From positions 2,294,001 through 2,358,000 of the forward strand of contig NZ_CP060634.1 of NCBI RefSeq assembly GCF_014337195.1: 64,000 bases of DNA, given 5' to 3'. A program made the position numbers and the translations under genes. Positions 24,202-54,500 of the stretch are shown in pieces. Source of the stretch: Qiania dongpingensis (GTDB lineage: Bacteria; Bacillota; Clostridia; Lachnospirales; Lachnospiraceae). Below the pieces are notes generated by a model. It was not told where the DNA came from. It made no database searches and was given only the letters and a program-made list of their open reading frames with translations. Numbering within the stretch: the first letter of the stretch is position 1; the number at the start of each line of letters is the position of its first letter.

Positions 24202-24241
24202 ATTCAAGTTTGTCGGGTAAATAGCAAACCCAGCCGAGCCA

Positions 24242-25000: not shown

Positions 25001-25035
25001 AAACTGAATACCAGCCGCCACCGACGCGGCCAGCG

Positions 25036-29561: not shown

Positions 29562-29573
29562 AAGGAGTAGCCT

Positions 29574-29759: not shown

Positions 29760-29801
29760 CAGGACATAAAGAAGCAGTTTTGACGCTTTTGCCGCTATAC
29801 A

Positions 29802-31487
<1,686 letters not shown>

Positions 31488-31495
31488 CCGCCCGA

Positions 31496-31544
31496 CCTAT
31501 CCGACACAATGGCCAAGTGCCGGATAGGAACGGCAAAATTTTTT
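31496..31544 (+). terminator. Hairpin and T-run at the right end of IME-1
   Basis: CCTATCCG (31496-31503) pairs with CGGATAGG (31521-31528). A T-run follows about 10 nt later. It may terminate the recombinase transcript or be part of the attachment site. Confidence 0.5.
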
Positions 31545-31574
31545 ACACTTCTATTGCTTCTTTATCACACACAA

Positions 31575-31673
31575 GCAAAGAGCCAGGGCATGAAGCAGCT
31601 CATGGCCGGTGCTGGTGTAGCCGTAGTCGGCATGGTCCTTGTACCTCTGCTCTCCGGGCTTTTCTCTGTCTAA
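31575..31673 (+). pseudogene. maff2: maff2, 3' part separated by IME-1
   Basis: From the GC at 31575 the frame reads AKSQGMKQLMAGAGVAVVGM and then VLVPLLSGLFSV before TAA, which is the normal Maff2 C-terminus with its second hydrophobic helix. It has no start or RBS of its own. It joins to 20683-20804 in frame if IME-1 leaves. Confidence 0.92.
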
Positions 31674-37582: not shown

Positions 37583-37834
37583 ATGGCAAAGAACAAAATT
37601 GAGCGCATTGACCAGGAGATTACAAAGGTCCGCGAGAAGATCGCAGAGTATCAGGAAAAGCTCAAGGCGCTGGAAGCACAGAAAACCGAGGCAGAAAATC
37701 TGGAGATCGTCCAGATGGTGCGCGCCCTGCGTATGACCCCGACCCAGTTGAGCGCCATGCTGTCCGGTGGCACAGTTCCCGGCAGTTTGGCTGATGACAA
37801 TAACGAACAGGAGGAAAACAGCTATGAGGAATAA
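37583..37834 (+). CDS. DUF4315 family protein
   Basis: An 83-residue coiled-coil protein ([22 protein letters not shown]) typical of DUF4315, found in the transfer region of Tn1549-type ICEs. RBS AAGGAG precedes the ATG. Function is unknown. It overlaps the next gene by 11 bp. Confidence 0.85.
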
Positions 37835-38588
37835 ACGATTGCTCCGAACACTTTCCGCCCTTTGCCTGACAATGGTTGTGGCATTTGGCTTTACGATCCC
37901 TGCTTTTGCACAGGGGTCAGAACAGGCTCCGGCGGCACCGGCAGAGGATTCTACCAATGACAGCAATGTTACTGTGGAAGAAACAGAACCAGCACCGGCA
38001 CTTACACCGGAGGGGAATGCGGCACTGGTGGATGATTTTGGAGGCAATAAGCAGCTTATTACTGTTACGACCAAAGCTGGAAATTACTTTTACATCCTGA
38101 TTGACAGGGCGAATGAGGATAAAAAGACTGCTGTTCACTTTCTGAATCAGGTGGATGAAGCGGATTTGATGGCACTGATGGAAGATGGAAAAGCAAAAGA
38201 GGAGCCGCCTGCGGTATGCAGCTGCACGGCAAAATGTGAAGCAGGGGCAGTCAATACGGGCTGTCAGGTCTGTGTAACTGATAAGAGTAAATGTACGGGC
38301 AAAGCACCGGAACCTCCGGCAGAAACACCGGAGCCGGAAAAAGAGAAGCCTGCCGGACTGAACCCGGCTGCGATAGTCCTTTTGCTGGCTCTGCTGGGCG
38401 GCTGTGGCGTATTTGCCTATTTGAAGCTTGTTAAGAACAAGCCTAAGACCAAGGGCAATGACAGTCTGGACGATTATGATTATGGCGAGGAAGATTCCGA
38501 GGAATGGGAAACCGAGGATGAGGAGTCGGACGAACCGGACGCTGATGGGGGCAGCACAGAAGAAGATGATGAGGACAGTGTGAAATGA
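37824..38588 (+). CDS. DUF4366 (CD1107-type) surface protein
   Basis: A 254-residue exported, membrane-anchored protein. It has a signal peptide (residues 1-30, ending IPAFAQ), the conserved [19 protein letters not shown], a Cys-rich patch ([10 protein letters not shown] to KSKCTG) and a proline-glutamate spacer. A membrane helix near 185-203 and a very acidic cytosolic tail complete it. ATG 37824 follows AGGAGGAAAACAGCT. The role is unknown, probably in the mating channel envelope. Confidence 0.85.
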
Positions 38589-38779
38589 CCCGTTTCACAG
38601 ACAGTCCCTATGAACGCATGATGACACGCAGGCCGGAGGGCGGGAAGGAAACTTCCCGTCCTCCTTCTTTACCCCACAGCCACCCCTGCTATGGCTGCGG
38701 GAGTTATGGAAGTCCCTGCGTAGGTATCTGCCATCGTGAGATGGAACGCTGGCTCAAAGAAAGGAAACGAAAAAAATGA
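38585..38779 (+). CDS. Small cysteine-rich ICE protein
   Basis: A 64-residue protein with a Cys-rich motif [18 protein letters not shown], likely metal-binding, and a basic C-terminus. It overlaps both neighbours by 4 bp, so it is translated with them. No family is recognised. Confidence 0.65.
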
Positions 38780-39468
38780 GTGTTCTGATTATATTTATCA
38801 AGCTGATTGCTGTTTTTGACCTGCTGGTAATTGCTGTGTATTTTGGCGGCGACATTCTTTCTACCATGTTAAACAAACTTCGGAGAAAGCCAAAGCAAGA
38901 TGACCCCTTTGATTTCTCCTTAGATACCGTGACAGTTTCATTGTCCATAGATTCTATCCGTCAGCTTTGTTCCGACGATGCGGCAGATTTTGTGGAAGAA
39001 AAGATCCTGCCAAATGCGGAGAAAACAATGGCCGTGCTGACGGAACAAGAACAGACGGCGGCTCGTCTGCTCTTATCCGCTTTGATCGGTTTTCTTGCAG
39101 CAGAAGCTCCTATGGATGAACAGAGCTTTCCTTTGATGATGGAACTTCTGAACTGCATGGAAGGGGAAAAAGAAGATGGTTGTCAGGATGCAGTAGATAG
39201 TTTACTTGAAGATGCCGCCTGCAATACCCGCCGTCACGAAGAATATTACAGCAATTATCAACGCTACCAGCTGATACAGGTGGATAAAACCCGTGTCATT
39301 TTGGCTTGCCGTATCATCATCAATGACCTGCTGGGGAAACTGTACCGCTATGACTACCGGTTTGGTTATAACCTGCTACTGGATGAGGAAAACAGCATAG
39401 AGAAAAAACTGCACACGCCTGTGCGGGAAGAATGGGAGGCTGAAGATTATGAATTTAGTGATTGCTGA
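38776..39468 (+). CDS. Hypothetical membrane-anchored ICE protein
   Basis: A 230-residue protein with one N-terminal membrane helix (LIIFIKLIAVFDLLVIAVYF) and a cytosolic helical domain. No known domain. It overlaps topB by 20 bp and belongs to the transfer operon. Confidence 0.7.
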   Translation: MSVLIIFIKLIAVFDLLVIAVYFGGDILSTMLNKLRRKPKQDDPFDFSLDTVTVSLSIDSIRQLCSDDAADFVEEKILPNAEKTMAVLTEQEQTAARLLLSALIGFLAAEAPMDEQSFPLMMELLNCMEGEKEDGCQDAVDSLLEDAACNTRRHEEYYSNYQRYQLIQVDKTRVILACRIIINDLLGKLYRYDYRFGYNLLLDEENSIEKKLHTPVREEWEAEDYEFSDC

Positions 39469-40906
39469 AAAACCATCGGTTGCACAAAGTCTGGCTACGG
39501 TAATCGGTGCAACTGCTCGTAAGGATGGGTATCTGGAGGGTAACGGCTGGCGTGTCAGCTGGTGCGTGGGCCACCTGGCCGGTCTTGCGGATGCAGACAG
39601 CTATGACTCCAAGTATGCCAAGTGGCGATATGATGACCTGCCTATTCTGCCGGAGCATTGGCAGATGGTAGTGGGAAAGGATAAGAAAAAGCAGTTTGAT
39701 ATTCTCAAAAAGCTGATGAACGCCCCGGATGTGACGGAGGTAGTAAATGCCTGTGATGCCGGGCGCGAGGGCGAGCTGATCTTCCGCAGCGTCTATGAGC
39801 TGGCAGGCTGCCAAAAGCCGATGAAAAGGCTCTGGATTTCTTCGATGGAGGATTCCGCCATAAGGGAGGGCTTTGCAAACCTGCGCCCAGGTGTAGATTA
39901 TGATGGACTTCGGGATGCTGCTCTCTGCCGTGCCAAGGCCGACTGGTTGGTAGGGATCAATGCCACAAGGCTTTTTTCCGTGCTGTACCACCGCACCCTC
40001 AACATCGGGCGCGTGATGTCTCCAACGCTGGCACTCATTGTCCAGCGAGAAGCTGAAATCGACACCTTTAAGCCGGTTCCTTTTTATACCGTGGCGCTGG
40101 AGCTGCCCGGTCTTACCGTATCTGGGGAGCGCATGGCGGATAAGGCCGCTGCTGAGCAGCTGAAAGAAACCTGTCAGGGTGCAGCTGTCACGATCAAAAA
40201 GGTGGAGTGCAAGGAAAAGTCTGAAAAGCCGCCTGCCCTCTATGACCTGACTACTCTGCAAAGAGATGCCAACCGCCTGCTTGGATTTACAGCCCAGCAG
40301 ACCCTGGACTATCTGCAAAGTCTGTATGAAAAGAAGCTTTGCACCTATCCCCGTACTGACAGCCGCTATCTGACCGGTGATATGGCAGACAGCCTGCCGG
40401 TACTGGTGAACCTGGTTGCCAACGCCATGCCGTTTTGCAAAGAAATCGCCATTACCTGTGATCCGCATACGGTCATCAACGATAAGAAAGTAACTGACCA
40501 CCACGCAGTAATCCCTACCAGAAATCTCAAGGATGCAGACTTTTCTGCCCTTCCTGCGGGAGAAAAAGCGGTGCTGGGGCTGGTGGCCCTGCGTCTGCTG
40601 TGCGCCGTAGCCCAGCCCCATATCTATTCGGAAACTGTTGTGATTGCAGCGTGTGCCGATGGGGAGTTTACCGCCAAAGGAAAAACGGTGAAGCATCCCG
40701 GATGGAAAGCACTGGAGGACGCTTACCGTGCCAAAATGAAGGATGCAGAGCCGAAAAAAGAGGGTGCAGAGAAAGCCCTGCCGGAGCTGACCGAAGGACA
40801 GACCCTTTCGGTTTCTGCGGCAATCGTCAAAGAAGGTAAAAGCTGTCCACCTCAGCACTTTACGGAAGTTATATGCTATGAAAGGGGGATAAGAAATCGC
40901 CCGTAG
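39449..40906 (+). pseudogene. topB: topB (topoisomerase III), 5' part interrupted by IME-2
   Basis: The gene encodes a type IA topoisomerase that decatenates DNA during ICE transfer or replication. The TOPRIM start LVIAEKPSVAQSLA, DAGREGELIFR and active-site Tyr300 in TYPRTDSRYL are intact. After the GA at 40865-40866 the frame enters IME-2 and ends after VICYERGIRNRP, giving a 485-residue product without the C-terminal domain. Joining 39449-40866 to 50580-51261 restores 699 codons. Confidence 0.95.
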
Positions 40907-40921
40907 AAAGGAGAATTTTCA

Positions 40922-42793
40922 ATGAAAGCAAGGAAAACTGACGCAGGAAAGATAACCGCATTATACGAGCGTTTGAGCCGCGACGATGACCTCACAGGCG
41001 ACAGCAACAGCATAATCAACCAAAAGAAGCTGCTTGAAGATTATGCAAGAGAGCATGGATTTACGAATTGCGTCCACTTTACCGACGATGGCTGGTCTGG
41101 GGCAAACTTCGAGCGTCCGAACTGGAAACGCATGATTGCGGGAATTGAAATCGGCGAAATCGGCTATGTACTGGTAAAGGATTTAAGTCGTGTCGGTAGA
41201 GATTATTTGCAAGTGGGATTTTACACAGAAGTCATGTTCAAAGAGCGCGGCGTCCGATTTATCGCCATAGCAAACGGAGTTGACAGCGACAAGCGCGAAA
41301 GCAGCGAGTTTGCCCCGTTTTTGAACATTATGAACGAATGGTATGTGCGCGACAGCAGCCGCAAAATAACAAGCGTTCTCCGCGCAAGGGGAATGTCCGG
41401 CAAGCATACAAACAGCCATTGTATTTATGGCTATAAGAAAGACCCCAACGACAAAGACCACTGGATTATCGACGAGGAAGCCGCCGAGGTAGTACGCCGG
41501 ATTTACCACATGGCGTTAGAAAGCAAAGGCCCGTATGAAATCGCTCGTATCCTTGCTTTAGAAAAGATTGAAAGACCGTCCTATTACCTTGCACAGCGCG
41601 GCGTGGGAAAACATCAATCAAACTATAACCCCGCTGAACGGTACACATGGCGCGGCGGCACAGTTGCCGACATTCTATCCAAGCCAGAGTACATGGGGCA
41701 TACGGTAAACTTCCGCACCTATAAAGAAAGCTATAAGGACAAACGCTCCAGAATGACACCGCAAGAGGATTTAGTCATTTTTGAGAATACGCAGGAAGCC
41801 ATTATTGACAGGGAAACATGGGAGCGTGTTCAGAGCTTGCGGAAAACCATACGCCGGACGGACACCATAGGCGCGGCAAATCCCTTAACAGGCTTGATGT
41901 TTTGTGCGGATTGCGGAGCGAAAATGTATAACCACAGGGGCGGGGCGGGAATTGCGCGCGACTGGGCTGGGCGACCCAACGGAAAGAAGCGTCCAGAACG
42001 CGACGAATACAACTGTTCCCGTTATGATTTAGGCAACCAGCACTACGATAGATACTGTACAACGCACCTTATCCGCACAGCGGTTGTAAATGAACTTCTG
42101 CTTGAAGCTATCAAAGAAGTGTGCGACTATGCGCTGAATAATGAAACGGCATTTATGGAACAGGTCTGCTCTGCTTCCAGCGAACGACAGGCGAAAGCGG
42201 CAAAGGCAATCCGGCAGCGGAAACAGCGCAGCGAAAAGCGGACTGACGAATTGAGCCGCTTAATCCGCAAACTTTATGAGGACAATGTAAACGGTAAACT
42301 TTCTGATAAGCTCTTTGAGCAAATGTTACATGATTTTGAAGCGGAATTAGAGAGTTTGACCGAGAGCATAGCACAAGACCAACAGGAACTTGACCGCATA
42401 AGCCGGGAAACTGTCAACGCTGAAAAATTCCTTGACCTTGTAAAAAAGTACACGGATTTTTCCGAGCTTACCCCCGCCATGATAAATGAATTTGTTGAAA
42501 AAATCCTTGTTCATCAAGCCGAGGGCAAGGGGGCAAGCCGCACACAGGAGGTTGAGATTTTCTTTAATTTTGTCGGCAAAGTGGAAATCCCCCATGAAGA
42601 AATCAAACTGACAGAGGAAGAAAAAGCCGCATTAGCGGAGCAGGAACGACGCAGAGCGAAAAAAGCGGAATATAACCGCCGCTATATGGAGAAGAAACGC
42701 AGACAATGGAAAGAGCAGCGGGAACAGGAACAGGCGCAGAAGCCCCAAGAGCTTCCCTCTGCCGCAGACGAGAAAGGAGAACATATCGCATGA
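40922..42793 (+). CDS. Large serine recombinase of IME-2
   Basis: A 623-residue recombinase. The catalytic serine is S19 in YERLSRDD, followed by KDLSRVGRDYLQVG, the recombinase domain ending in KHTNSHCIYGYK, and a zinc ribbon (MFCADCGAKMYN to CTTHLIR). A DUF4368-like C-terminus ends in a highly charged tail. It starts 55 bp from the left core with RBS AAAGGAG. It is related to, but clearly distinct from, the IME-1 recombinase, consistent with the different core dinucleotide. Confidence 0.95.
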   Translation: MKARKTDAGKITALYERLSRDDDLTGDSNSIINQKKLLEDYAREHGFTNCVHFTDDGWSGANFERPNWKRMIAGIEIGEIGYVLVKDLSRVGRDYLQVGFYTEVMFKERGVRFIAIANGVDSDKRESSEFAPFLNIMNEWYVRDSSRKITSVLRARGMSGKHTNSHCIYGYKKDPNDKDHWIIDEEAAEVVRRIYHMALESKGPYEIARILALEKIERPSYYLAQRGVGKHQSNYNPAERYTWRGGTVADILSKPEYMGHTVNFRTYKESYKDKRSRMTPQEDLVIFENTQEAIIDRETWERVQSLRKTIRRTDTIGAANPLTGLMFCADCGAKMYNHRGGAGIARDWAGRPNGKKRPERDEYNCSRYDLGNQHYDRYCTTHLIRTAVVNELLLEAIKEVCDYALNNETAFMEQVCSASSERQAKAAKAIRQRKQRSEKRTDELSRLIRKLYEDNVNGKLSDKLFEQMLHDFEAELESLTESIAQDQQELDRISRETVNAEKFLDLVKKYTDFSELTPAMINEFVEKILVHQAEGKGASRTQEVEIFFNFVGKVEIPHEEIKLTEEEKAALAEQERRRAKKAEYNRRYMEKKRRQWKEQREQEQAQKPQELPSAADEKGEHIA

Positions 42794-43116
42794 GAAGATT
42801 GATTGACAATGGAAACACATACGCTGCCAGACCACCTTATATCGGGCATTACGGACGCTTGCGGAAAGCCTACCTTGAGAGCTACCGCCCCGACCTCTAC
42901 GCCGCCCTTACCGCCAGTGAAACGCTCTATGAGCATTGCGCCGAGATTGACGCAGCCGCCCGAAGCCGGATTGACCTTATCATGTCGCAGCTTGCTAAGA
43001 GTGCGGGAGTTGCCGAGAAATTAAAAGCAAAAGATCCGCTTGCGTGGGTGGGACTGATGAACGCTTGCAAGGCACAGGCGGAGAAAATCGTGAAGCACGA
43101 GTTAATCTATGTTTGA
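42790..43116 (+). CDS. tnpV: TnpV family protein
   Basis: A 108-residue transposon-encoded protein of the TnpV family with YGRLRKAYLESYRPDLYAAL, LYEHCAEIDAAARSR and DPLAWVGLMNACKAQAEKIV. Its start overlaps the recombinase stop by 4 bp. Function is unknown. A homologue lies inside the SNF2 gene at 55,979. The 171 bp after it hold no convincing gene. Confidence 0.85.
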   Translation: MRRLIDNGNTYAARPPYIGHYGRLRKAYLESYRPDLYAALTASETLYEHCAEIDAAARSRIDLIMSQLAKSAGVAEKLKAKDPLAWVGLMNACKAQAEKIVKHELIYV

Positions 43117-43287
43117 CGGTCAAGAGCCGGAAAAAACAGAAATCTTGCGATAACAGCCGCCTCGACGATACATTCCCCGTCCGGGCGGTTTTTATCGTCA
43201 AAATCGCTGTTTCCCCCAAGTCAAGAGCCGGAAAAAACACCCGAAAAATGCCACTATTGCGTAACAGGGGCGCAGAAAGGAGCTTGC

Positions 43288-43602
43288 ATGAAAACAGGAC
43301 TTACAAAACAGGAAAAGACCACCGATATTTGGTTTGACGAGAAAGACCCACTAATCTATATCCGCACCCACAACACCGACTTAAAGAAGCGGCTTGCCGC
43401 CTATGCCGGACAGCACTCCGACCAGTGCCGCCAGACCGACGCAGACCCCGAAACGGGTTGCATGGAGTTTGAGATTGCAAAGGGGCGTTTCTCTTTCCGT
43501 CTGACCGCTCCATACAGCGAAGAACGGCGCAGAGCCGCCAGCAAAGCGGCAAAGAAACAATACGGCAACTTGACACACCCTATTCAAAAAGATGTGCTAT
43601 AA
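43288..43602 (+). CDS. Conserved mobile-element protein
   Basis: A 104-residue protein with DPLIYIRTHNTDLKKRLAAYA and a C-terminal PYSEERRRAASKAAKK. The ICE protein at 51,258 has the same plan (MAEIYTHDPRLMEKL, then PYSAERRKAASERAK), so they are homologues. Function unknown. RBS AAAGGAG precedes the ATG. Confidence 0.7.
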   Translation: MKTGLTKQEKTTDIWFDEKDPLIYIRTHNTDLKKRLAAYAGQHSDQCRQTDADPETGCMEFEIAKGRFSFRLTAPYSEERRRAASKAAKKQYGNLTHPIQKDVL

Positions 43603-43687
43603 TTTTTTTGAAAAAATTTTGGATTTGATGTAGTATTTGCCGCTGAAACCGTAGTATATGGGTGAAGCCGGAAAGGAGGCGGCGTAT

Positions 43688-44248
43688 TTGATAGAAGATG
43701 AAAAAATCATAGAACTTTTTTCCCAACGTTCAGAAGAAGCTATACGGGAACTGGATATAAAATACGGCAAAGTTTATCAAAAGCTCTCGTATAACATTGT
43801 GAACAACAGACAGGACGCGGAGGAATGTGTGAATGACGCTTACTTAGGCACATGGAACGCAATTCCCCCGGCGAAGCCTGACCCGCTGCTGACCTATGTC
43901 TGTAAAATCGTTCGGAACATTTCATTGAAGATTTATTACAGAAAGGAAGCAGCCAAACGAAGCAGCCATTACACGATTGCTATGGAGGAAATCGAAGCCT
44001 GCATAGCAGACCCCAACACAGTTGAAACGGAGATTGAAGCCAGAGAATTAGCCCGTATCATTGAAAACTTTTTGGACACGCTGACCGTTGAAAATCGAGT
44101 TATCTTCATACGGCGGTATTGGTTTTCTGAAAGCTGCAAAGATATAGCCGAGTTTGTAGGGCTTACAGAGAAAAACATCTCCGTCCGGCTGACCCGTATC
44201 CGTCAAAAAATGAAAGACTATTTAATCGAAAGAGAGGTATTTATATGA
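43688..44248 (+). CDS. ECF-type RNA polymerase sigma factor
   Basis: A 186-residue sigma-70 family factor. Region 2 is in ELDIKYGKVYQKLSYNIVN and AEECVNDAYLGTWNAIPP; region 4 helix-turn-helix is CKDIAEFVGLTEKNISVRLTR. TTG 43688 is chosen because AAAGGAGG sits 10 bp before it; ATG 43658 has no RBS. The next gene overlaps by 4 bp and encodes a membrane protein, the classical layout of an ECF sigma and its anti-sigma factor. A target promoter was not identified. Confidence 0.9.
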   Translation: MIEDEKIIELFSQRSEEAIRELDIKYGKVYQKLSYNIVNNRQDAEECVNDAYLGTWNAIPPAKPDPLLTYVCKIVRNISLKIYYRKEAAKRSSHYTIAMEEIEACIADPNTVETEIEARELARIIENFLDTLTVENRVIFIRRYWFSESCKDIAEFVGLTEKNISVRLTRIRQKMKDYLIEREVFI

Positions 44249-45618
44249 ACTCTAAGAAGTTTTCCGAAGCCATGAGTGAGCTTGACAGCAAGTACATTGA
44301 TGAAGCAATCCATTACAAGAAGAAGTCCAGCAAGAAACACAACTGGACGAAGTGGGGTTCCCTTGCCGCGTGTCTTTGTTTGGCATTAGGCGCAGCATTT
44401 ACCGTACCGAAGCTCATGCAGCCTTCCGATATTGGCGATATTGGTACGCCACAGCCCAGTAACCCGATTATTTCTCCTATACAGGAGGAGCCGCACAAAC
44501 AGCAGACCGATAACAGTGTCATTGATGAAACTATGACATTGGAGGAAGCACAGCTTTCCGAGCCTTTCGGCGGCTACATGCTTTCCGAAGCACCGTCCGG
44601 CTTTACTGTTGAAACAATCCGGCGTTATCAAGATGAAACTGCAAACTATCTTTCTGGACTTTGGACGAAAGGCGAGGGTTCCTTTGATGAAATAAGCTGG
44701 CGGGTATCTTCCTATGATGACACTATGGAAAACAGAGTAACATCCGTTGATGATACCCAAAATTACGATTTAAGCCTTTATCCGTTCCCACTTGCTGATT
44801 CCGTACCAGAAGAATTGTTCGAGGTTGTAGACCACCCGATTTTTAATATCGATGAACTGACATTAGAAGCTGTTAGCCGCAGAGCCTACACTATCAATGA
44901 AAGCAGCGACACAGACGCAATCAGAATGACTTTTGGTGTTCGCTATGGGGATATTGTTGTTGATGTTACAACCAAGGGCGTATCGCCGGAATGGATTTAT
45001 GAGCAGCTAATCGAATTAAAAGATGTGGGTAGCAATACACAGGATATGGCAGCAAAACGCGCAGCACAAAATGTCATTGTTGATGAAACTATGACCTTAG
45101 AGGAAGCGCAGCTTTCCGAGCCTTTCGGCGGCTATATGCTTTCCGAAGCACCGTCCGGCTTTACCAGCGATATAATCCGGCGTTACCAAGATGAAACTGT
45201 AAACTACCTCTCTGGATTTTGGACGAAGGGCGAAGATTCCTTTGATGAAATAAGCTGGCGGGTATCTTCCTATGACGCGACTATGGAAAACAGAGTAACA
45301 TCGGTTGATGATACTAAGAACTACGATTTAAGCCTTTATTCATTCCCGCTTGCAGACTCCGTACCGGAAGAATTGTTTGAGATTGTAGACCACCCTATTT
45401 TTAATATGGACGAGCTGACATTGGAAGCAATCAACCGCAGAGCCTATTCTATCAATGAGAGCAACGACACAAGCGCAATTAGAATGACTTTCGGTGTCCG
45501 TTATGGAGATGTGGTTGTGGAAGTCACGACTAAAGGCGTATCGGCGCAATGGATTTACGACCAGCTTGTGAATGTATACCATGACAAAAGCTGCATTAAC
45601 TTTAGAAGCAGTAACTAA
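44245..45618 (+). CDS. Putative anti-sigma membrane protein with duplicated extracellular domain
   Basis: A 457-residue protein. Residues 1-35 are cytosolic and charged (KKFSEAMSELDSKYIDEAI), as in anti-sigma N-termini of Clostridia. One membrane helix spans 37-54, and the rest is extracellular. The extracellular part is a tandem duplication: residues 93-258 and 279-444 are about 90% alike, each starting DETMTLEEAQLSEPFGGYML and ending GVS-WIY-QL. Overlap with the sigma gene supports a sigma/anti-sigma pair. The sensed signal is unknown. Confidence 0.8.
   Translation: MNSKKFSEAMSELDSKYIDEAIHYKKKSSKKHNWTKWGSLAACLCLALGAAFTVPKLMQPSDIGDIGTPQPSNPIISPIQEEPHKQQTDNSVIDETMTLEEAQLSEPFGGYMLSEAPSGFTVETIRRYQDETANYLSGLWTKGEGSFDEISWRVSSYDDTMENRVTSVDDTQNYDLSLYPFPLADSVPEELFEVVDHPIFNIDELTLEAVSRRAYTINESSDTDAIRMTFGVRYGDIVVDVTTKGVSPEWIYEQLIELKDVGSNTQDMAAKRAAQNVIVDETMTLEEAQLSEPFGGYMLSEAPSGFTSDIIRRYQDETVNYLSGFWTKGEDSFDEISWRVSSYDATMENRVTSVDDTKNYDLSLYSFPLADSVPEELFEIVDHPIFNMDELTLEAINRRAYSINESNDTSAIRMTFGVRYGDVVVEVTTKGVSAQWIYDQLVNVYHDKSCINFRSSN
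44521..45018 (+). repeat. Intragenic tandem domain repeat, copy 1
   Basis: 498 bp coding residues 93-258 of the putative anti-sigma protein. Copy 2 lies at 45079-45576, exactly 558 bp downstream. The DNA copies are also closely similar, so the duplication is recent. Confidence 0.9.
45079..45576 (+). repeat. Intragenic tandem domain repeat, copy 2
   Basis: Second copy, coding residues 279-444. Differences from copy 1 are mostly third-position or conservative, which implies that function has been kept in both. Confidence 0.9.
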
Positions 45619-45652
45619 ATAATTGTAGCCACCCATAATTGAATACTGACCT

Positions 45653-45686
45653 AAAAGGGCAGCCGAGAAAATCGACTGTCCTTTTT
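45653..45686 (+). terminator. Terminator after sigma/anti-sigma operon
   Basis: AAAAGGGCAGCCGA pairs with TCGACTGTCCTTTT, using two G-U pairs, and ends in a T-run. Confidence 0.7.
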
Positions 45687-45718
45687 CTATGCCGACAGGC
45701 AGAAAGGAGCGACCACCC

Positions 45719-46012
45719 ATGACGAAACCGAGAGAGAAAACCCTTGAAAAACTGACCGCCGAGATTGAGGACGGAAAGAAGAAAATCCGGCAGTTTGAGA
45801 ACCGGGAAAAGATGTTGCGTCAGAAGTTATCCAAAGAGGAACGCAGGACACGCAGCCACCGCCTTATCGTCCGGGGCGCGGTCTTTGAAAGCATTGTGCC
45901 GGAAGCAAAGGACATGACCGACGAGGAAGCAGCCGCGCTTCTCCGGCTTGCCTTGACGAGCCAGCCAGCGCGGGAATATGTGAAAAAACGAGCCGAGGGA
46001 GCGACAAGCTGA
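45719..46012 (+). CDS. DUF3847 family protein
   Basis: A 97-residue protein of the DUF3847 group found upstream of MobA/MobL relaxases. It has a coiled-coil N-terminus (LEKLTAEIEDGKKKIRQFEN) and SHRLIVRGAVFESIVPEAK. RBS AAAGGAG precedes ATG 45719. The place beside oriT suggests a relaxosome accessory role, as for small Mob proteins; this is inference. Confidence 0.8.
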   Translation: MTKPREKTLEKLTAEIEDGKKKIRQFENREKMLRQKLSKEERRTRSHRLIVRGAVFESIVPEAKDMTDEEAAALLRLALTSQPAREYVKKRAEGATS

Positions 46013-46180
46013 AAGTCCCTTAGGAACTAAGGGCGCACTTATACACCCTTACGGGCGTGTGCGCTCTGCCGAGGGCTTAATCTTCGCACAGGGATTTTCC
46101 CCCGCGCTACGATTGGCGGCTATGCCGCAGACAGGGGAAGCTACACTTCCCCTGCGACAGCTTACGCTGTCTACCCCTTA
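46013..46180 (-). other. Origin of transfer of IME-2 (MOBQ-type oriT)
   Basis: On the minus strand the sequence TAAGTGCGCCCTTA (plus 46028-46041) matches the conserved core of MOBQ-type oriTs of Gram-positive plasmids. It lies beside an inverted repeat GCGCAC (46033-46038) / GTGCGC (46059-46064). Two further hairpins, GGGGAAG/CTTCCCC and GACAGC/GCTGTC, follow near 46133-46174. It is directly upstream of a MobA/MobL relaxase, as expected. Confidence 0.82.
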
Positions 46181-46264
46181 GTGTACTTGCCGGAAGCAAA
46201 CACCTTGCTACGCAAGCTATTCACTTCCAACAAGTCTGAAATCGCTCTAACGGAGGTGATACCC

Positions 46265-47770
46265 ATAGCGATTTATCATTGTAACATCAGCATTGTCAGT
46301 CGTGGAAAAGGCAAGTCTGCCGTAGGCGCAGCCGCCTACCGAAGCGGCGAAAAAATCACGAATGAGTGGGACGGAATGACCCATGACTACACAAGGAAAC
46401 GCGGCGTCATTCATACCGAAATCATGCTGCCGCCCCATGCCCCGCCCTCTTTCTCTGACCGCGCTATCCTATGGAACAGCGTGGAGCTTTCCGAGAAAGC
46501 CGGGAACGCGCAGCTTGCAAGGGAGATTGACGCAGCCCTACCCGTAGAATTATCCAGAGAGGAACAGATACGGCTTGTCCGGGAATACTGTTCCTCTCAA
46601 TTTGTTTCCAAAGGAATGTGCGTTGATTTTGCCATTCACGACACCGACAGCGGCAACCCCCATTGTCATATCATGCTTACTATGCGACCCCTTGACGAGC
46701 GCGGCGCATGGGCGGCGAAATCCAAAAAGGAATATGACCTTGACGAGAACGGGGAGCGCATACGCTTACCGAGTGGCAGATACAAGACCCACAAGGTAGA
46801 CCTCACAGGTTGGAACAGCCAAGAGAACGCGCTTGTCTGGCGCAAGGCGTGGGCGGATATTTCCAACGAGTTTTTAGAACGCGCCGGAAGCCCGGAGCGT
46901 ATCGACCACCGCAGCAACGCCGAGCGCGGCATTGATGAAATCCCCACCGTCCACATGGGCGTGGCGGCTTGTCAAATGGAGAAGAAAGGCATAGCCACCG
47001 AAAAGGGCGAGCTTAACCGGAATATCCGCAAGGCAAACCGACTGATTAAGGAAATCCGGGCGCAGATCGGCAACCTCAAAGAATGGATTGCCGGACTGCT
47101 TGCAGAGAAAGAAGCTGCCCCCGAAAAGCCGCAGCCGCCCCAGTCTCCCGACCTTGCAAATCTTCTGATGAAGTATCTAAGCGTCCAGAGGGAAAAGAGC
47201 CGGAAGTATTCGCAGAGCTGGCAAAGGCAGCACGCAGCCGACGAACTGAAAACCGTATCACAGGCGGTCAATTTCCTTGCGGGGCGCGGTATTTCTACCC
47301 TTGCGGAGCTGGACGCTTCCCTTTCCTCTGTCCGTGAGAAATCCGACGCTATCCGTGAGGGCATGAAAGCCGCCGAGAAGCGCATGAAAGAGCTTCAAAA
47401 GCTGATTGAATACGGGGAGAATTATCTGAAATACAAGCCCGTACACGACGAGTTGAAAACGCTGAAAAATGGCTGGACGAACAAACGCGATAAGTACGAG
47501 GAAGCCCACCGTACCGAGCTTGCCCTATGGAACGCGGCGAGCCGCTATCTTCACGCCAACTTGCCGCAAGGCGTGAAATCCTTGCCTATCGCGGAATGGA
47601 AAAAGGAGTGCGCCGCCCTCAAAGCGCAGAACACCGCCGACTATACGAAGCTCAAAGAAACCCGCGCCGAGGTTGCCGAGCTTCAGAATATCCGAAAGTG
47701 TGTGGAGATTGCACAGCGGGCAGACCAGCCGGAGCAGACCCGCGCCAAGCGGCAGAAACAGGAGCGATAA
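46265..47770 (+). CDS. MobA/MobL (MOBQ) relaxase of IME-2
   Basis: A relaxase of about 501 residues. The N-terminus IAIYHCNISIVSRGKGKSAVG and AAAYRSGEKI, and the metal triad in GNPHCHIMLTMRPL, are MOBQ hallmarks. The C-terminal half is coiled-coil. The conserved N-terminus begins at an ATA codon (46265), 6 bp after GGAGGTG. In-frame alternatives are GTG 46257-based or GTG 46181, which adds 28 residues across the oriT side. The true start is unclear. Confidence 0.9.
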   Translation: MAIYHCNISIVSRGKGKSAVGAAAYRSGEKITNEWDGMTHDYTRKRGVIHTEIMLPPHAPPSFSDRAILWNSVELSEKAGNAQLAREIDAALPVELSREEQIRLVREYCSSQFVSKGMCVDFAIHDTDSGNPHCHIMLTMRPLDERGAWAAKSKKEYDLDENGERIRLPSGRYKTHKVDLTGWNSQENALVWRKAWADISNEFLERAGSPERIDHRSNAERGIDEIPTVHMGVAACQMEKKGIATEKGELNRNIRKANRLIKEIRAQIGNLKEWIAGLLAEKEAAPEKPQPPQSPDLANLLMKYLSVQREKSRKYSQSWQRQHAADELKTVSQAVNFLAGRGISTLAELDASLSSVREKSDAIREGMKAAEKRMKELQKLIEYGENYLKYKPVHDELKTLKNGWTNKRDKYEEAHRTELALWNAASRYLHANLPQGVKSLPIAEWKKECAALKAQNTADYTKLKETRAEVAELQNIRKCVEIAQRADQPEQTRAKRQKQER

Positions 47771-47842
47771 AGGAAAAGGACGGTCAAACTGTCTGGCTTG
47801 TCCGTCCTATGTACTATCCGGTAAATTTTAAAATTTGTTGAA

Positions 47843-48241
47843 CTATTCGCCAAATTTATCGTATCCCCACCAATCTGGGATTAACTCTTTAAGTTTTACT
47901 GTTTTATTTGTTTCAAGGTCAAGAAGAATTTCAATATCTCCGCTATCCTTATCTAACTGCATCATATACTCGCGACAAGCACCGCAAGGAGAACCAACCC
48001 GACCATCAGGCATTACTGCTACAACTTTATCAATCTGGCTCTCGCCATTTGTAATCATATTGGCAATAGCATTTCTTTCCGCGCACATTCCAAGTGTTGA
48101 CGCAGTATCAATACAAACACCAACATAAATATTTCCTTGCTTAGTAAGAATAGCTGCCGCAACTCCTCCTGCCTCTATAAAAGGGGAAATTGTTCGACTA
48201 TTTTGTACATTAACTGCTGCATTATATAATTTGTTCCACAT
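47843..48241 (-). CDS. Cytidine deaminase-like nucleoside deaminase
   Basis: A 132-residue zinc-dependent deaminase of the cytidine/blasticidin-S deaminase superfamily. Zinc ligands and catalytic acid are C53-A-E55 and P-C86-GA-C89. The start ATG 48241 has AGGAGA upstream on the minus strand; the longer open frame is not needed. It is AT-rich and antisense to the rest of IME-2, which marks it as separate cargo. It could salvage pyrimidines, detoxify a nucleoside drug or alter nucleotide pools. Confidence 0.85.
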   Translation of the reverse strand: MWNKLYNAAVNVQNSRTISPFIEAGGVAAAILTKQGNIYVGVCIDTASTLGMCAERNAIANMITNGESQIDKVVAVMPDGRVGSPCGACREYMMQLDKDSGDIEILLDLETNKTVKLKELIPDWWGYDKFGE

Positions 48242-48332
48242 AATATTAGGTCTCCTCAAATACAAATTTGTCGGTTTCATTATACTTGAAAACCATAAAC
48301 AATTCAACCACAGAAAGCGAGGTATCAAAACT

Positions 48333-50234
48333 ATGTATTACACCCAAGAACAGATAGACCGGGCAAACGCCGCCGACCTTGTTTCTTTTCTGCAAGGACA
48401 GGGCGAACAGCTTACCCGCGCCGGAAACGAATACCGCTGGAAGCGGCACGACAGCTTGACTGTCCGGGGAAACAAATGGTATCGCCACAGCCAGAGCAAG
48501 GGCGGCGCACCCATTGATTTTGTCATGGAGTTTTACGGAAAGAGCTTTACCGAAGCCGTGGAACTTCTCACAGGAGAAAAAGGCGCAGCACCGCCGCCGG
48601 ACAGACCAAGCCCCGCGCCCCTCTCTGACTTCCGACTGCCGCCCCGCAGCCCCGACAACAGCACAGCGAGGAACTACCTCACAGCAGCCCGCCGCATTGA
48701 TGAAGATGTGACGGGCTTTTTCTTTTCCACCGGGAATATTTACGAGGAAGCCGCCCACCATAACGCCGTATTTGTCGGCAGAGATGAAAGCGGCGTACCG
48801 CGATACGCCCACCAGCGCGGCACAGCCGGGAGCTTCCGGCTTGACGTGAAAGGCAGCGACAAAGCCTTTAACTTCTGCTATCGCGGCGAGGGCGAAAGAT
48901 TGTTTGTCTTTGAAGCACCCATTGACCTGTTATCTTTCCTCTGTCTGTTCAAAAAGGACTGGCAGAAGCAAAGCTATCTGGCGTTGGGCGGCGTGGGCGA
49001 GAAAGCCCTTTTACGCTTCCTCTCTGACCGCCCCAACATCAAGACCGTGTACCTCTGCCTTGATAGCGACCAAGCCGGAAACGACGCTTGCAGCCGCCTT
49101 GTGAAGCTCATGCCGGAGGGCTTGACCGTCCACCGCCTTATCCCTCTTTTCAAGGACTGGAACGAGGTACAGACGCGCCGGGGAGAAATCACAGACGGGA
49201 AATATCTCCGGGAAGCCGTCTATGGACTGAAAGAGCCGCAGCCGGAGGAAACCGTCGAGATTATCCGCATGAGCGAGGTGGACACCCAAGCCGTAGAATG
49301 GTTGTGGGAGCCTTATATCCCCTTTGGGAAAGTTACAATAGTACAGGGCAACCCCGGCGAGGGAAAGACCACCTTTGCCTTGCGCCTTGCCGCCGCCTGC
49401 ACCACCGGGGGGACGCTGCCGGGCATGAAGCCCATGCCGCCCTTTCAAGTGATTTACCAGACCGCCGAGGACGGGCTGGGCGATACCGTCAAGCCCCGAC
49501 TGATAGAAGCCGCCGCAGACCTTGACCGCGTGCTTGTGATTGATGAAGCCAAGCGGGAGCTTACCCTATCCGACGGGCGCATAGAGAAAGCAATCGTCCA
49601 GAACGGGGCGCGTCTGATTATCCTTGACCCCATACAGGCGTACATGGGCGAGAAAGCCGACATGAACAAGGCTAACGAGGTACGCCCCATTTTTCGCCGC
49701 CTTGCCGAAGTTGCGGAGCGTACAGGGTGCGCGGTTATCCTTATCGGACACCTGAACAAAGCAGCCGGAGGACAGAGCGCATACCGGGGCTTAGGCTCTA
49801 TCGACTTTAGAGCCGCCGCCCGGAGCGTGCTTTTAATCGGGCGCGTGAAGCGTGAGCCGAATGTGCGCGTCATTATCCATGACAAATCTTCCCTTGCGCC
49901 GGAGGGGAAGCCCGTAGCCTTTTGCCTTGACCCCGATACGGGCTTTTCATGGATAGGCGAATATGATATAACCGCTGATGAACTGCTATCCGGCGCGGGC
50001 GGCAACACCGCCACTAAGACCGAACAGGCGGAAAAGCTGATACTTGACCTACTGGTGGACGGAAAGGAGCTTGCCAGCGAGGAAATAGTAAAAGCCGCCG
50101 CCCAAGCCGGAATATCCGAGAGGACGGTACAGAACGCCAAGCGCAATATGAGCGATATTCTGGGCGCAAGGCGCGTCGGCGGTCAATGGTACAACTTCAT
50201 CAAGAAGAAGCACCAGCCCGAAACCGCAATCTGA
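48333..50234 (+). CDS. Primase-helicase fusion protein
   Basis: A 633-residue replication protein of IME-2. The N-terminal part is a DUF3991/CHC2-like primase zinc-less finger region (RWKRHDSLTVRGNKWYRHSQSKGGAPIDFV) with a TOPRIM fold (ALGGVGEKAL, VYLCLDSDQAGNDA). The C-terminal part is a RepA/RecA-like hexameric helicase: Walker A GNPGEGKTT near 340, LIILDPIQAYMG, VILIGHLNKAAGG. A final winged-helix region (TVQNAKRNMSDILG) ends it. ATG 48333 follows GCGAGG. It combines priming and unwinding in one chain. Confidence 0.87.
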   Translation: MYYTQEQIDRANAADLVSFLQGQGEQLTRAGNEYRWKRHDSLTVRGNKWYRHSQSKGGAPIDFVMEFYGKSFTEAVELLTGEKGAAPPPDRPSPAPLSDFRLPPRSPDNSTARNYLTAARRIDEDVTGFFFSTGNIYEEAAHHNAVFVGRDESGVPRYAHQRGTAGSFRLDVKGSDKAFNFCYRGEGERLFVFEAPIDLLSFLCLFKKDWQKQSYLALGGVGEKALLRFLSDRPNIKTVYLCLDSDQAGNDACSRLVKLMPEGLTVHRLIPLFKDWNEVQTRRGEITDGKYLREAVYGLKEPQPEETVEIIRMSEVDTQAVEWLWEPYIPFGKVTIVQGNPGEGKTTFALRLAAACTTGGTLPGMKPMPPFQVIYQTAEDGLGDTVKPRLIEAAADLDRVLVIDEAKRELTLSDGRIEKAIVQNGARLIILDPIQAYMGEKADMNKANEVRPIFRRLAEVAERTGCAVILIGHLNKAAGGQSAYRGLGSIDFRAAARSVLLIGRVKREPNVRVIIHDKSSLAPEGKPVAFCLDPDTGFSWIGEYDITADELLSGAGGNTATKTEQAEKLILDLLVDGKELASEEIVKAAAQAGISERTVQNAKRNMSDILGARRVGGQWYNFIKKKHQPETAI

Positions 50235-50300
50235 AAGTGCAAAACGCAGAGCCTTTGCACCTTGCACTTTCGCACTTTCAGATTTTGAATAACTGACACC

Positions 50301-50335
50301 AGCCCTTGTGCAGCAGCCGCATGAGGGCTTTTTTC
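50301..50335 (+). terminator. Terminator after the primase-helicase gene
   Basis: AGCCCT (50301-50306) pairs with AGGGCT (50324-50329), followed by six T residues. TnpW starts just after. Confidence 0.75.
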
Positions 50336-50351
50336 TATGAAAGGAGAGCCT

Positions 50352-50555
50352 ATGAACAATGAAACCCGCAAGACCGACAGCACCACCGCAGCCGCTTCCC
50401 CTCTGACCGTAAAGGAGGCCCCGCAGCCCGTTATGATAAAGAAAATCGGGAAAACCACCTACCGCGTTAAAATCCATTTCAGCGAAACGAGCAAAGAAAC
50501 CATGAGCGACAAAATCAAGCGGCTTATTTTGAATGATAGCGAAAAAATTTCTTAA
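50352..50555 (+). CDS. tnpW: TnpW family small protein of IME-2
   Basis: A 67-residue protein with a low-complexity threonine-rich start and a conserved tail VMIKKIGKTTYRVKIHFSETSKETMSDKI. ATG 50352 follows AAAGGAG. It ends 24 bp before the GA core, so in the circular form it would lie just upstream of the recombinase, as TnpW does in IME-1. Confidence 0.75.
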   Translation: MNNETRKTDSTTAAASPLTVKEAPQPVMIKKIGKTTYRVKIHFSETSKETMSDKIKRLILNDSEKIS

Positions 50556-50577
50556 ACACCCTTGACAAAACGTATCA

Positions 50578-51261
50578 GAGGACACCCTGTTGTCCGCGAT
50601 GGAGACTGCCGGAAAAGAGGATATGCCGGAGGATGCCGAGCGAAAAGGTCTGGGGACACCGGCCACCCGTGCCGGTATTTTGGAAAAGCTGGTATCTGCC
50701 GGTTTTCTGGAACGAAAAAAGAGCAGGAAAACGGTGCAGCTTCTCCCTTCCCACGATGCAGTTTCCCTGATCACCGTTCTGCCGGAACAACTGCAATCGC
50801 CGCTTCTGACTGCCGAGTGGGAGTACCGACTGGGCGAGATCGAGCGCGGGCAGCTTGCCCCAGAGGAGTTTTTGGACGGGATCAGCACCATGCTGAAAGA
50901 CTTGGTGGGAACTTATCAGGTCATCAAGGGAACTGAGTACCTGTTCACTCCGCCCCGTGAGGTGGTGGGCAAATGCCCTCGCTGCGGCGGTGAAGTTGCA
51001 GAACTGCAAAAAGGCTTCTTCTGTCAGAATGATTCTTGCAAATTTGCAATCTGGAAAAATAACAAATGGTGGGCTGCCAAGAAAAAACAGCCGACCAAGG
51101 CTGTGGTGTCTGCACTGCTTAACGATGGCCGTGTCCGTGTGACGGGCCTATATTCGGAGAAAACCGGAAAGACCTACGATGCCGCTGTGGTTTTGGAGGA
51201 CGATGGACAATACGCCAACTTCAAGCTGGAATTTGACCAGCGGAAAGGAGGCAGCCGATGA
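50578..51261 (+). pseudogene. topB: topB, 3' part separated by IME-2
   Basis: The frame continues topoisomerase III from the GA core: DTLLSAMETAGKEDMPEDAE, then RKGLGTPATRAGILEKLV and a C-terminal zinc finger CPRCGGEVAELQKGFFCQNDSC. It lacks a native start; ATG 50599 could give a fragment, but without the catalytic domain. Its stop overlaps the next start by 4 bp, as expected for the intact operon. Confidence 0.95.
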
Positions 51262-51542: not shown

Positions 51543-54500
51543 ATGGCAGAGAATGTATTTGAAGCAGTCAAGCAGTCGGTCAGCACCAGAGATGCGGCAG
51601 CGTTTTATGGGATCGAGGTCAAACGAAATGGCATGGCCTGTTGTCCCTTTCACGATGATAAGAACCCAAGCATGAAGGTAGACCAGCGGTTCCACTGCTT
51701 TGGCTGCGGTGAAGATGGGGATGTGATCGACTTTACCGCAAAGCTCTTTGACCTCTCCACAAAAGAAGCGGCGGAGAAACTGGCACAGGACTTTGGCCTG
51801 ATCTATGACAGTCAGGCCCCTCCCCGTAGGAGATATGTCCGGCAGAAAACAGAGGCACAAAAGTTTCGGGAGGACCGGCAGCGGTGTTATCGCGTACTGT
51901 CCGATTACTACTATCTGCTGAAAAAATGGGAGGCCGACAATTCTCCCCGGACACCGGAGGAAGAACCGCACCCCCGTTTTGTGGAAGCAATCCAGAAGAA
52001 AACCTATGTAGAGTACCTGTTGGACCTTTTTCTTTATGAAAGTGAAGAAGAACAAAAGGCATGGATTGCAGAACACACAGCAGAAATCACACACTTGGAA
52101 AGGAGATTGAAAATCATGGCTGAGAACAAACCCACCAACCGAGAGCGGCTAAGGGAAATCACAGATGGCATCGAGCAGGGGATCAAGGAACTGTTTGAGA
52201 GTGAAAAGTATATGCGCTATCTGTCCGTCATGTCCCGCTTCCACCGCTATTCGGTAAACAACACCATGCTCATCTATATGCAGAAGCCGGACGCTACATT
52301 GGTAGCCGGATACAATAAGTGGAAAGACCAGTTTGAGCGTCATGTAAAAAAGGGCGAGCATGGCATTACCATCATTGCTCCCACACCATATAAGAAGAAA
52401 ATCGAGGAGCAGAAACTGGACCCGGATACCAAGGCTCCGATTTTGGATAAAGACGGAAAGATCGTCACAGAGGAAAAAGAAATCGAGATCCCCATGTTTC
52501 GCCCGGTCAAGGTCTTTGATGTGAGCCAGACCGACGGGAAACCTTTGCCTGAGCTTGCTTCCTCCCTTTCCGGCAATGTGCCAAATTATGAGGCATTCAT
52601 GGAGGCTCTGCGCCGCAGTGCGCTGGTGCCGATCACTTTTGAAGCAATGGCCGCCGATACGGACGGCTATTTTTCTGCCGATCATCAGAAAATCGCCATT
52701 CGTCAGGGCATGAGTGAGGTGCAGACGGTTTCGGCCACAGTACACGAGATTGCCCACAGCAAGCTCCACAATCAGAAAAAGATTCAGATTGCCAATGACG
52801 AGCAATATCAGGAGATCGAGCTGTTTGATAAACCCGGTCTGTTCTCCAATGGGCGGATTGCCCGTGATAATCTGCCGGAGGGCGTTTATTACTATGACCT
52901 GCGCGGTTCTGACTACGACCCCGGAGAGCCGGTCTGTGTAGAAGAACAAGTAGTTGTAAACCATGCAGGTTCCGTTCTGCTGACAGAGCCGCTGGAGTTG
53001 GCGGAAGATGGACGCCTGATGCTGACCGAGGAAGAAGGGCTGAATTTTGTTGGCGGCTTTTCTACCCTCACCCAGTTTTTGCAAGAACATAGGAAAGACC
53101 GCCACACGGAGGAAGTGGAGGCTGAAAGCATCTCCTACGCAGTCTGCAAATATTTTGGCATCGAGACCGGAGAAAACAGCTTCGGCTATATTGCAAGCTG
53201 GAGTCAGGGCAAGGAACTGAAAGAACTGAGAGCCAGTTTGGAGACCATCAACAAAACCTCCGGCACTTTGATCTCTGACATTGAGCGCCACTATAAGGAA
53301 ATATGCAAAGAGCGTGGGATTGATCCCCATGCAAAGGCAGAGTCGGAAACCGCCCCGATAGAGCAGCCGACCGGCAATCTAACCTACTATGTAGCAGAGT
53401 GCATGGAGTTTCCAAACCTCGGAGAATACCACGATAACCTGTCTTTGGAGGAAGCTGTACGCATTTATCAGGAGATTCCGGCAGAGCGAATGAATGGGAT
53501 CAAGGGCATTGGCTTTGAGCTGAAAGATGGAAGCGACTATGAAGGACCTTTTCCGATTTTGACCGGGCAGACCATTGACCTGGACACCATTCAGGCAATC
53601 GACTATTACCGTGATAATCCGTTGGTGCAAAAAGCGGTAAAGGAACTGGCTGCGGCCATGCCGGAAATGGAGGTGCTGGGAGCGGACGCCAACCAGCAGG
53701 AGGCTTTGTTTCTGATCAACGATACTACCTATCTTCATATCCAACCTTGTGACAGCGGATGGGACTACACTCTTTACGATGCTGCGTCCATGAAAGAGCT
53801 GGATGGTGGTCAGCTGGATATGCCGGAGCTTTCCTGCATGAAGGTAGTTCTCCAGATTTGTGATGATAACGATCTGGACAGCACTTCGCTCAGACGCGCT
53901 CCCTTGTCTATGGTTGAGACCTTGCAGGAAGCTGCTTATGAGCAGATGCAGGCAGAGGCAAGTCAGATGACCGCTTCTTCCCAGCTGCCGGAAGCGCAGG
54001 AGCAGGCACTGGATGAATACCCCATGCCGGATGAGCAGGTATCCACACCGGATATGCAGGAATATGGCTACTCCTATGATGGGATGCTCCCTGTTACCAG
54101 AGAACGGGCGCTGGAACTGGATGCCGCCGGTTTGACCGTCTATGTGCTGCATGAGGACAATACGGAGAGCATGGTGTTTGACCCGCAGGAAATCATGGAT
54201 CATGGCGGTCTTTTCGGTGTGGACCATGAGGAATGGGAGAAAAGCCCTCAGTTCCACGAAAAGGTCATGGAGCGTCAGGAACATCAGCAGGAACGCGAAC
54301 AGGCATTTCTCTCTCAGAACAGAGATTGCTTTGCCATCTATCAGGTGAGCCGTGACGATCCGCAGAATGTGCGCTTTATGAATCTGGATTGGTTAAAGTC
54401 CCATGACATTTCCATAGACCGCAGCAATTATGACCTCATTTACACAGCTCCTCTGAGGGAGTCTGGCACTGTGCCGGAGCAGTTGGAAAAACTCTATCAG

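Follow-up and report, generated by a model that had tools for sequence, protein, structure and literature searches.

Integrative mobilizable elements (IMEs) that lie inside the genes of integrative and conjugative elements (ICEs) are already established, with traG, maff2, snf2, and PPI among the interrupted genes. Streptococcal IMEs with serine integrases are placed in traG, maff2, and snf2 (PMC5357655, PMC5704250), those of Streptococcus suis in SNF2, PPI and Tn1549 COG4646, membrane-protein, and traG genes (PMC7168690), and MobQ relaxases are reported for 12 of 16 serine-integrase IMEs (PMC5357655). Induction of conjugation has been proposed to cause IME excision (PMC5357655), and the need for IME excision before ICE transfer is an unsettled question there (PMC5357655, PMC12479173), still called worth testing (PMC12479173). 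Excision of a nested element was shown by PCR for Tn6104 (PMC3158075). The present study examined a 64,000-nt stretch of the Qiania dongpingensis genome (NZ_CP060634.1, positions 2,294,001 to 2,358,000 of the forward strand; hereafter the window, whose own coordinates are used throughout), in which a 9,713-bp element, IME-2, interrupts the topoisomerase III gene (topB) of an ICE. The explanation that we consider quite probable is that the TnpX-like recombinase of IME-2 prefers a site within topB and that excision driven by read-through transcription restores the gene.

The interrupted topB gene and its edges

A preliminary description, made from the sequence of the window, had proposed that IME-2 cuts the ICE's topB after residue 472, with GA, the overlap known for TnpX-type recombinases, at both edges, and that the gene resumes 9.7 kb further on. 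The features that bear on this proposal are as follows.

39449..40906, plus strand: 5′ piece of the ICE topB (codons 1-472 and the core, then 12 residues from the element's left end), keeping Toprim and Tyr300
40865..40866, plus strand: left GA crossover core, from direct reading and relatives
40867..50579, plus strand: IME-2, 9,713 bp with one GA copy counted, its edges set against loci L001, L086, and L087 and the ICE backbone of genome G001
40867..40902, plus strand: left attachment (att) arm, an inverted relative of the right arm, from arm comparison
40922..42793, plus strand: large serine recombinase (Resolvase, Recombinase, Zn ribbon, and DUF4368), from domain scans
50542..50577, plus strand: right att arm, from arm comparison
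50578..50579, plus strand: right GA crossover core, from direct reading and relatives
50578..51261, plus strand: 3′ piece of the ICE topB, 227 codons and a stop, open throughout, from a library match and relatives

Comparison with ICE relatives lacking the insertion had been set beforehand as the test, and the two topB pieces were aligned separately to six uninterrupted relatives, three close and three distant. The close ones (L001 in G001, L086 in G260, and L087 in G228) carry a natural, uninterrupted topB of 699 codons with 95-99% identical DNA, and in 3/3 the left homology runs gapless to 40866 and the right homology gapless from 50578, leaving an overlap of exactly 2 bp that coincides with the GA read directly at both edges. 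The predicted join is thereby exact, and the lengths of the two pieces sum to the natural 699-codon gene, the length that had been predicted for the rejoined frame. In the distant relatives (L088, L089, and L002), the right piece again begins at 50578; their left local alignments end before the edge (at 40677, 40731, and 40385, respectively) and are therefore uninformative about it. On its own GA is weak evidence, since it opens a conserved Glu codon. The element ends are also inverted about the GA, with a mean of 19.8 of 36 positions matching in 13 elements against 10.0 in shuffled arms (the weakest being L019, with 14/36), which places the crossover at GA independently of the relatives. It is on the 2-bp overlap with the relatives and on the arms inverted about GA that the claim of insertion rests.

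Nor is the stub the normal length of its family: among 295 genomes of the order, a hand count of the 53 topB-like matches at E ≤ 2e-130 gave 49 open frames between 674 and 767 aa in length, one of which contains an inner stop, and four shorter ones (429, 599, 627, and 346 aa), the 429-aa frame apparently being the occupied contig L007. With both the join and the normal length checked, the reading of an interrupted topB survived.

The open frame of the stub spans 485 codons, of which matches to the topoisomerase III family reach about residue 473 in domain-library scans, and its last 12 residues are encoded by IME-2 and foreign to topB. The motif TYPRTDS places a tyrosine, which we take to be the catalytic one of topoisomerase III, at residue 300, so the earlier statement that the stub retains Tyr300 holds. 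The cut, placed by sequence at about residue 494 of a solved topoisomerase III, passes through the topoisomerase core, and the distal frame at 50590-51258 covers the remaining Topoisom_bac columns and the C-terminal Toprim_Crpt domain in Pfam and NCBIfam scans. The stub had been said to lose both the C-terminal domain and a zinc finger; the former is borne out, and the latter in part, as a zinc-ribbon-like Cys-X2-Cys ... Cys-X4-Cys arrangement can be read from the distal translation and no library scanned calls a zinc domain there. Lacking the C-terminal domain and the end of the core, the 485-residue stub is most likely inactive.

The alternative that survives best is that the insertion is a dead end, with topB permanently knocked out, the ICE decaying, and nothing restored, which we regard as rather unlikely. 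Such IMEs do occur in many decayed streptococcal ICEs (PMC5357655), and excision of IME-2 is predicted from sequence alone. The distal piece, however, is fully open, and its synonymous and nonsynonymous codon differences number 7 and 0 against L001, 23 and 5 against L086, and 22 and 4 against L087; its dN/dS of 0-0.09 (0.12-0.15 for the stub) is not above the 0.05-0.11 found among the three uninterrupted genes. The distal pieces of 12/12 relatives with both sides present likewise contain no stop in their aligned parts, and the recombinase, core, and arms of IME-2 are intact. A recent insertion would look alike, and the intact distal piece fits a recent insertion equally well as it fits repeated restoration.

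topB as a recurrent target of one recombinase clade

Relatives of the IME-2 recombinase were gathered by a scan of genome contigs, in which the best 80 of 282 were kept, and the topB flank was tested by tblastn of the two topB pieces at each recombinase locus. A topB flank was present in 21 of these 80 relatives, 19 with a readable left junction and two (L006 and L027) by the right flank only; two loci end at contig edges, and 57 were without a topB flank in this test and were labeled "other," some of them having short flanks. A tree was built by a quick method from 77 of the 80 relatives and the window's two recombinases, with support from the Shimodaira-Hasegawa-like approximate likelihood ratio test (SH-aLRT) and no bootstrap; L041, L061, and L076, whose recombinase frames fall below 500 aa, stood outside it. 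The IME-2 recombinase fell within a clade of 24 (SH-aLRT 99), comprising 21 members in topB (the window included), two at contig edges, and one elsewhere (L021), and the topB label required five changes on the tree against 19.4 in shuffles. A second tree was hand-picked from all topB and contig-edge rows, 23 of 54 "other" rows, and the plasmid loci L120 and L123, with L096 dropped for its length.

The topB genes hit are not copies of one ICE, since the 20 stubs form 16 groups at 80% identity with a pairwise median of 50%, the genes being 40-97% alike. Relatives of the window's virB4 or virD4 were counted by hand in 13 of the 21 topB loci, several of the other eight being short contigs. The core is GA at 20/20 left and 15/15 right junctions, and the target site is the stretch of topB that encodes the topoisomerase III motif P-P-x-x-F/Y-T-E/D, with GA belonging to the acidic codon. 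The idea that this site is the most conserved DNA of topB was rejected, as it ranks 422 among 2,097 windows in eight uninterrupted genes (L086 and L087 having been dropped as near copies of L001). A role of the insertion as a swap point between ICEs was unsupported; stub and distal identities covary with r 0.88 over 78 pairs, the comparison figure being r 0.96 in 28 pairs of uninterrupted genes. In a sample of the class, 20 of 391 genomes held a recombinase relative at E ≤ 1e-150 (with a maximum of three candidates per genome), the best of them 53% identical, and the clade is therefore sparse in that sample. At locus L006 (1-15760), VirD4 is seemingly interrupted twice, with virD4 as the left flank and topB as the right; its second element combines a left end unlike that of IME-2 with an IME-2-like body, which suggests a hybrid element and a deletion of the ICE DNA that would separate virD4 from topB, unless the contig is misassembled.

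The same address recurs outside the gut ICEs. When the left 2 kb of a clade member was compared with a plasmid collection of 72,556 records, four records contained 93-100% of it and one more contained 40%. The three that were opened, NZ_CP070578.1 and NZ_CP085731.1 (Klebsiella pneumoniae) and NZ_CP070545.1 (Citrobacter freundii), are IncC plasmids typed as conjugative, with near-identical sequence around the insertion, so that we treat all three as a single event. The 6,699-bp element that they carry (L120 11915-18614 in NZ_CP070578.1, and also L121 and L122) lies at the same topB codon as IME-2 and has GA at both edges, TTGACA in its right end, and TACACT in its left end, in a topB whose product is 36% identical to the window stub. 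The recombinase of this element is 99% identical to that of an Oscillospiraceae gut metagenome-assembled genome (L046), and 2.6 kb at the left of the element matches L049 at 95.6% DNA identity. Among the genes of the element are two predicted aminoglycoside-resistance genes, aph(2'')-IIa and aac(6')-Im. No match to the left 2 kb of IME-2 or of the Klebsiella element was found in ecoli_genomes. A further, more distant recombinase lies within topB in a Subdoligranulum plasmid record (L123). TopB relatives are encoded by at least 5,000 of the 72,556 plasmid records, the typing being conjugative for 4,097 of the 5,000, so topB could serve as a general address. For IncA and IncC plasmids, topB is one of the genes taken as the functional core (PMC9709138), and a paper on Czech hospital plasmids, which names resistance genes on p49969_KPC, does not contain the word topoisomerase (PMC8333104). 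Together, the copies at one codon of very different topB genes, in anaerobic bacteria and in hospital Klebsiella plasmids, suggest that topB is a shared landing site for hitchhiker elements.

Another account of this pattern would be a promiscuous element of the Tn4451 type for which GA is almost sufficient, and which is frequent in topB only through frequent encounters with conjugative elements. Members of the sister group L015/L017/L020/L026 do use different genes: L017 lies in topB, L015 and L026 lie in other genes, and L020, although labeled "other," is apparently in topB, the final part of a topB-like motif being visible where its contig stops. Copies away from topB also exist, namely L021, which is intergenic and inside the clade; L041, with a frameshifted recombinase; and L095 (an IMG/VR contig, 5590 onward), whose left end is 93% identical to that of IME-2 over 470 bp and lies in a phage tail gene (Prophage_tailD1). 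In a published survey, most members of the multi-targeting recombinase clade carry DUF4368 (PMC10083194). Yet 21 of the 24 clade members sit at one codon of divergent topB genes, the same codon was hit again in the IncC plasmids, and an enzyme requiring GA only would be expected across other genes of the same conjugative elements too, which makes this account improbable. Because L021, L041, and L095 lie elsewhere and DUF4368 is common in multi-targeting recombinases, this enzyme, although of a kind that is largely promiscuous, can be said to prefer topB strongly but not without exception.

The putative divided promoter and the proposed switch

The proposed reversal of the insertion involves the following features of the element ends and of the ICE genes ahead of topB.

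37767..39468, plus strand: ICE genes (CD1107-like, a small open reading frame (ORF), and a 230-aa protein) that overlap one another and the start of topB, from ORFs and a domain scan
40872..40877, plus strand: −10-like hexamer TATGCT (4/6), at +6 from the core, from the end scan
50562..50567, plus strand: −35 hexamer TTGACA, 16 bp before the core, from the end scan

The ends of the element appear to carry a split promoter, the −35 and −10 hexamers of IME-2 lying 17 bp apart only when both ends meet. At the would-be −35 position of integrated IME-2, the topB bases match at 2/6, and across junctions at 0-2/6. The right ends have a −35 hexamer at −16 in 15/15 (6/6 matches in 11 and 5/6 in four), and the left ends have a −10-like hexamer at +6, with four or five of six matches, in 20/20. 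When all positions were scanned, the best place for a −35 in 12 distinct right ends was −16 (mean 5.83/6, next 3.08) and the best place for a −10 in 14 distinct left ends was +6 (mean 4.21, next 3.57); the two ends having been scored separately, these places together give the 17-bp spacer at the joined ends. That the circle of Tn4451 forms a promoter for TnpX is given by the title of Lyras and Rood 2000, as cited in PMC13023037.

The recombinase gene of IME-2 begins 55 bp past the core and is co-directional with topB, and at 19/20 left junctions the recombinase starts 39-57 bp past the core (by alignment) in this same direction, the exception being L017, which lies outside the clade. A pattern scan of the plus strand over 38845-43000 of the window found no promoter-like site, and, given the overlapping genes upstream of topB, the recombinase gene is apparently part of an ICE operon. 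With this gene following the stub co-directionally and its promoter apparently divided, read-through from the ICE operon could trigger excision. Under this proposal, recombination at the GA of the acidic codon would put the IME inside topB, and the ICE would then make a stub that has the catalytic tyrosine and lacks the end of the core and the C-terminal domain. The integrated recombinase would be without a promoter of its own and expressed by read-through from the ICE transfer operon only, such that switching on the ICE would produce recombinase, release the IME, and restore topB. The freed IME would be mobilized by its own MobQ relaxase via the machinery of the ICE, and the joined ends of the circle would act as a promoter and sustain recombinase expression until another topB is found.

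Besides the copies away from topB and the merely moderate conservation of the site described above, several points weigh against this explanation. Upstream of topB lie a terminator-like hairpin of 13 pairs (38635-38664) and a promoter-like site (38816-38844), which make the extent of operon transcription reaching topB uncertain. A −10-like hexamer follows within topB at 2/15 right junctions (L016 and L018), where an outward promoter is possible. TTGACA lies within the arm bound by the recombinase, so its conservation may serve binding and not transcription; being related, the compared ends are also not independent observations. Excision in the host is itself a prediction, and other cellular topoisomerases could substitute for TopB, G001 having five topB-like genes, one of them distant. 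S. suis IMEs in ICE genes showed no excision in the published tests and one such ICE still transferred (PMC7168690), and ICESp2905 transferred with its IMEs in place (PMC5704250); this argues against a need for excision in those cases, in which the interrupted genes were not topB.

Translation of the distal half from a start of its own near the right end, with both topB pieces functional, is hardly credible: a TTG at 50590 begins an open frame and the relatives' distal pieces are free of stops, but no common start codon or ribosome site was seen by eye at 15 right junctions, and the cut runs through the enzyme's core. We return, then, to the proposal of a recombinase that prefers topB and would restore it upon excision. 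In the wider form of this proposal, one recombinase lineage would use topB as its common address in conjugative elements as different as gut ICEs and IncC plasmids, and the split promoter and read-through would tie excision and the return of topB to activation of the conjugative element; this form we put forward as a tentative possibility.

Content of IME-2, its host ICE, and comparison with known systems

The remaining genes of IME-2, and the features of the ICE around it, are listed below.

42790..43116, plus strand: TnpV-like protein, from a domain scan; the mechanical ORF runs from 42706, with a later in-frame ATG at about 42790
43658..44248, plus strand: extracytoplasmic function (ECF)-type sigma-70 factor, from Pfam/NCBIfam; in 7/7 nearest relatives (L006-L012)
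44245..45618, plus strand: protein that has a hydrophobic stretch and whose C-terminal part is duplicated, encoded in overlap with the sigma gene; in 7/7 of L006-L012
46181..47770, plus strand: MobQ-family (MobA/MobL) relaxase (NF041496, 268 bits against a cut-off of 200)
47843..48328, minus strand: cytidine-deaminase-like cargo gene, from domain scans
48231..50234, plus strand: primase-helicase-like protein (DUF3991, Toprim_2, and AAA_25), from a domain scan; a later ATG is the likely start
50337..50555, plus strand: TnpW-like small protein of 72 aa, by a gene annotated TnpW at the matching place in the Klebsiella plasmid element
21464..23383, plus strand: tetracycline-resistance gene of the TetM/TetW/TetO/TetS family in the same ICE region, from a family scan
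51543..54911, plus strand: ICE protein with a CHC2 zinc finger, an ArdC N-terminal domain, and LPD domains, downstream of topB, from a domain scan

IME-2 has its own integration enzyme, its own relaxase without mating-pore genes, and edges with a 2-bp GA direct repeat, features of an IME, here one lodged within an ICE; excision and mobilization are its predicted behaviors. No VirB4, VirD4, coupling-protein, or mating-pore gene was found among the nine IME-2 ORFs scanned (the 72-aa ORF at 50337 being outside the scan), and the name TnpW for the product of that small ORF is our assumption. The product of 44245..45618 has no Pfam or NCBIfam match and is possibly an anti-sigma factor. Matches to the product of 47843-48328, between the relaxase and the primase, include solved blasticidin-S deaminases, which stand below the best cytidine deaminases. 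Within the element, 48252-48565 (314 bp) has 89% matches, at a place without annotation, in two plasmids of Aeromonas salmonicida, and 46130-46241 (112 bp) matches two Clostridia plasmid records and one faecal phage record at 87-88%. A megablast of the whole region against the plasmid and phage collections returned short element pieces only (1-3% of the query) and no topB join, and Rfam gave no match at the gathering threshold within the window.

The host carries a CD1110-family VirB4 and a CD1115-family VirD4, both above curated cut-offs, and we take it to be a CTn/Tn1549-type ICE. G001 holds the same ICE backbone, 96-98% identical from 14838 on, without IME-2. In place of the block at 20797-31578 of the window, which includes the tet gene, a second large serine recombinase, and a VirD2-like relaxase, the ICE of G001 holds 2.8 kb of other DNA. 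Also in that ICE, a group II intron lies in an SNF2-helicase gene (L090 6847-9470), the window counterpart of which is uninterrupted at the site 62996-62999.

Among described elements, Tn6104, which is nested in the CTn5-like ICE Tn6103 of Clostridioides difficile R20291 (PMC3158075), resembles IME-2 in its TnpX-related large serine recombinase and TnpV, in a MobA/MobL relaxase gene near the right end, in sigma-factor-like cargo, and in a 2-bp repeat within an interrupted ICE gene. The two are likened by description, and the target of Tn6104 is traG/virD4 according to PMC5704250, whereas that of IME-2 is topB. The streptococcal serine-integrase IMEs share with IME-2 site-specific insertion inside conserved conjugation genes, although the word topoisomerase is absent from the accounts of them consulted, and no promoter logic appears in the passages concerned. 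The Tn4451/Tn4453 family (TnpX) shares with IME-2 the GA core (PMC5704250) and TnpV, and, according to the same source, differs in its numerous GA sites and MobV relaxase from the one preferred gene and MobQ relaxase of IME-2. Measured against this family, IME-2 has the GA and recombinase domains that fit, its likeness to TnpX being one of domains only; low insertion specificity (21/24 clade members are in topB) and a MobV relaxase are absent from it; and its hexamers and their spacing would fit a promoter at the circle joint.

A coding gene reversibly interrupted by an excisable element is also seen in skin, a prophage-like excision switch in sigK, from which IME-2 differs in that the gene it interrupts belongs to another mobile element and not to the host. 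In the literature searched, mostly at the level of titles, abstracts, and term counts, topB was unreported as an IME target. If the proposal is true, an IME docks in very different conjugative elements via topB, its excision being tied to ICE activation. It offers a concrete, testable switch, with the recombinase gene behind the interrupted gene and the promoter divided between the element ends. A single recombinase lineage is seen to reach topB in elements of two phyla, the Enterobacterales copies carrying resistance cargo, and annotators gain a defined place in which to look for unrecognised nested elements. Relative to the known IMEs inside ICE genes, what is new is topB as the target, the breadth of topB genes hit, and the promoter arrangement that would explain the coupling.

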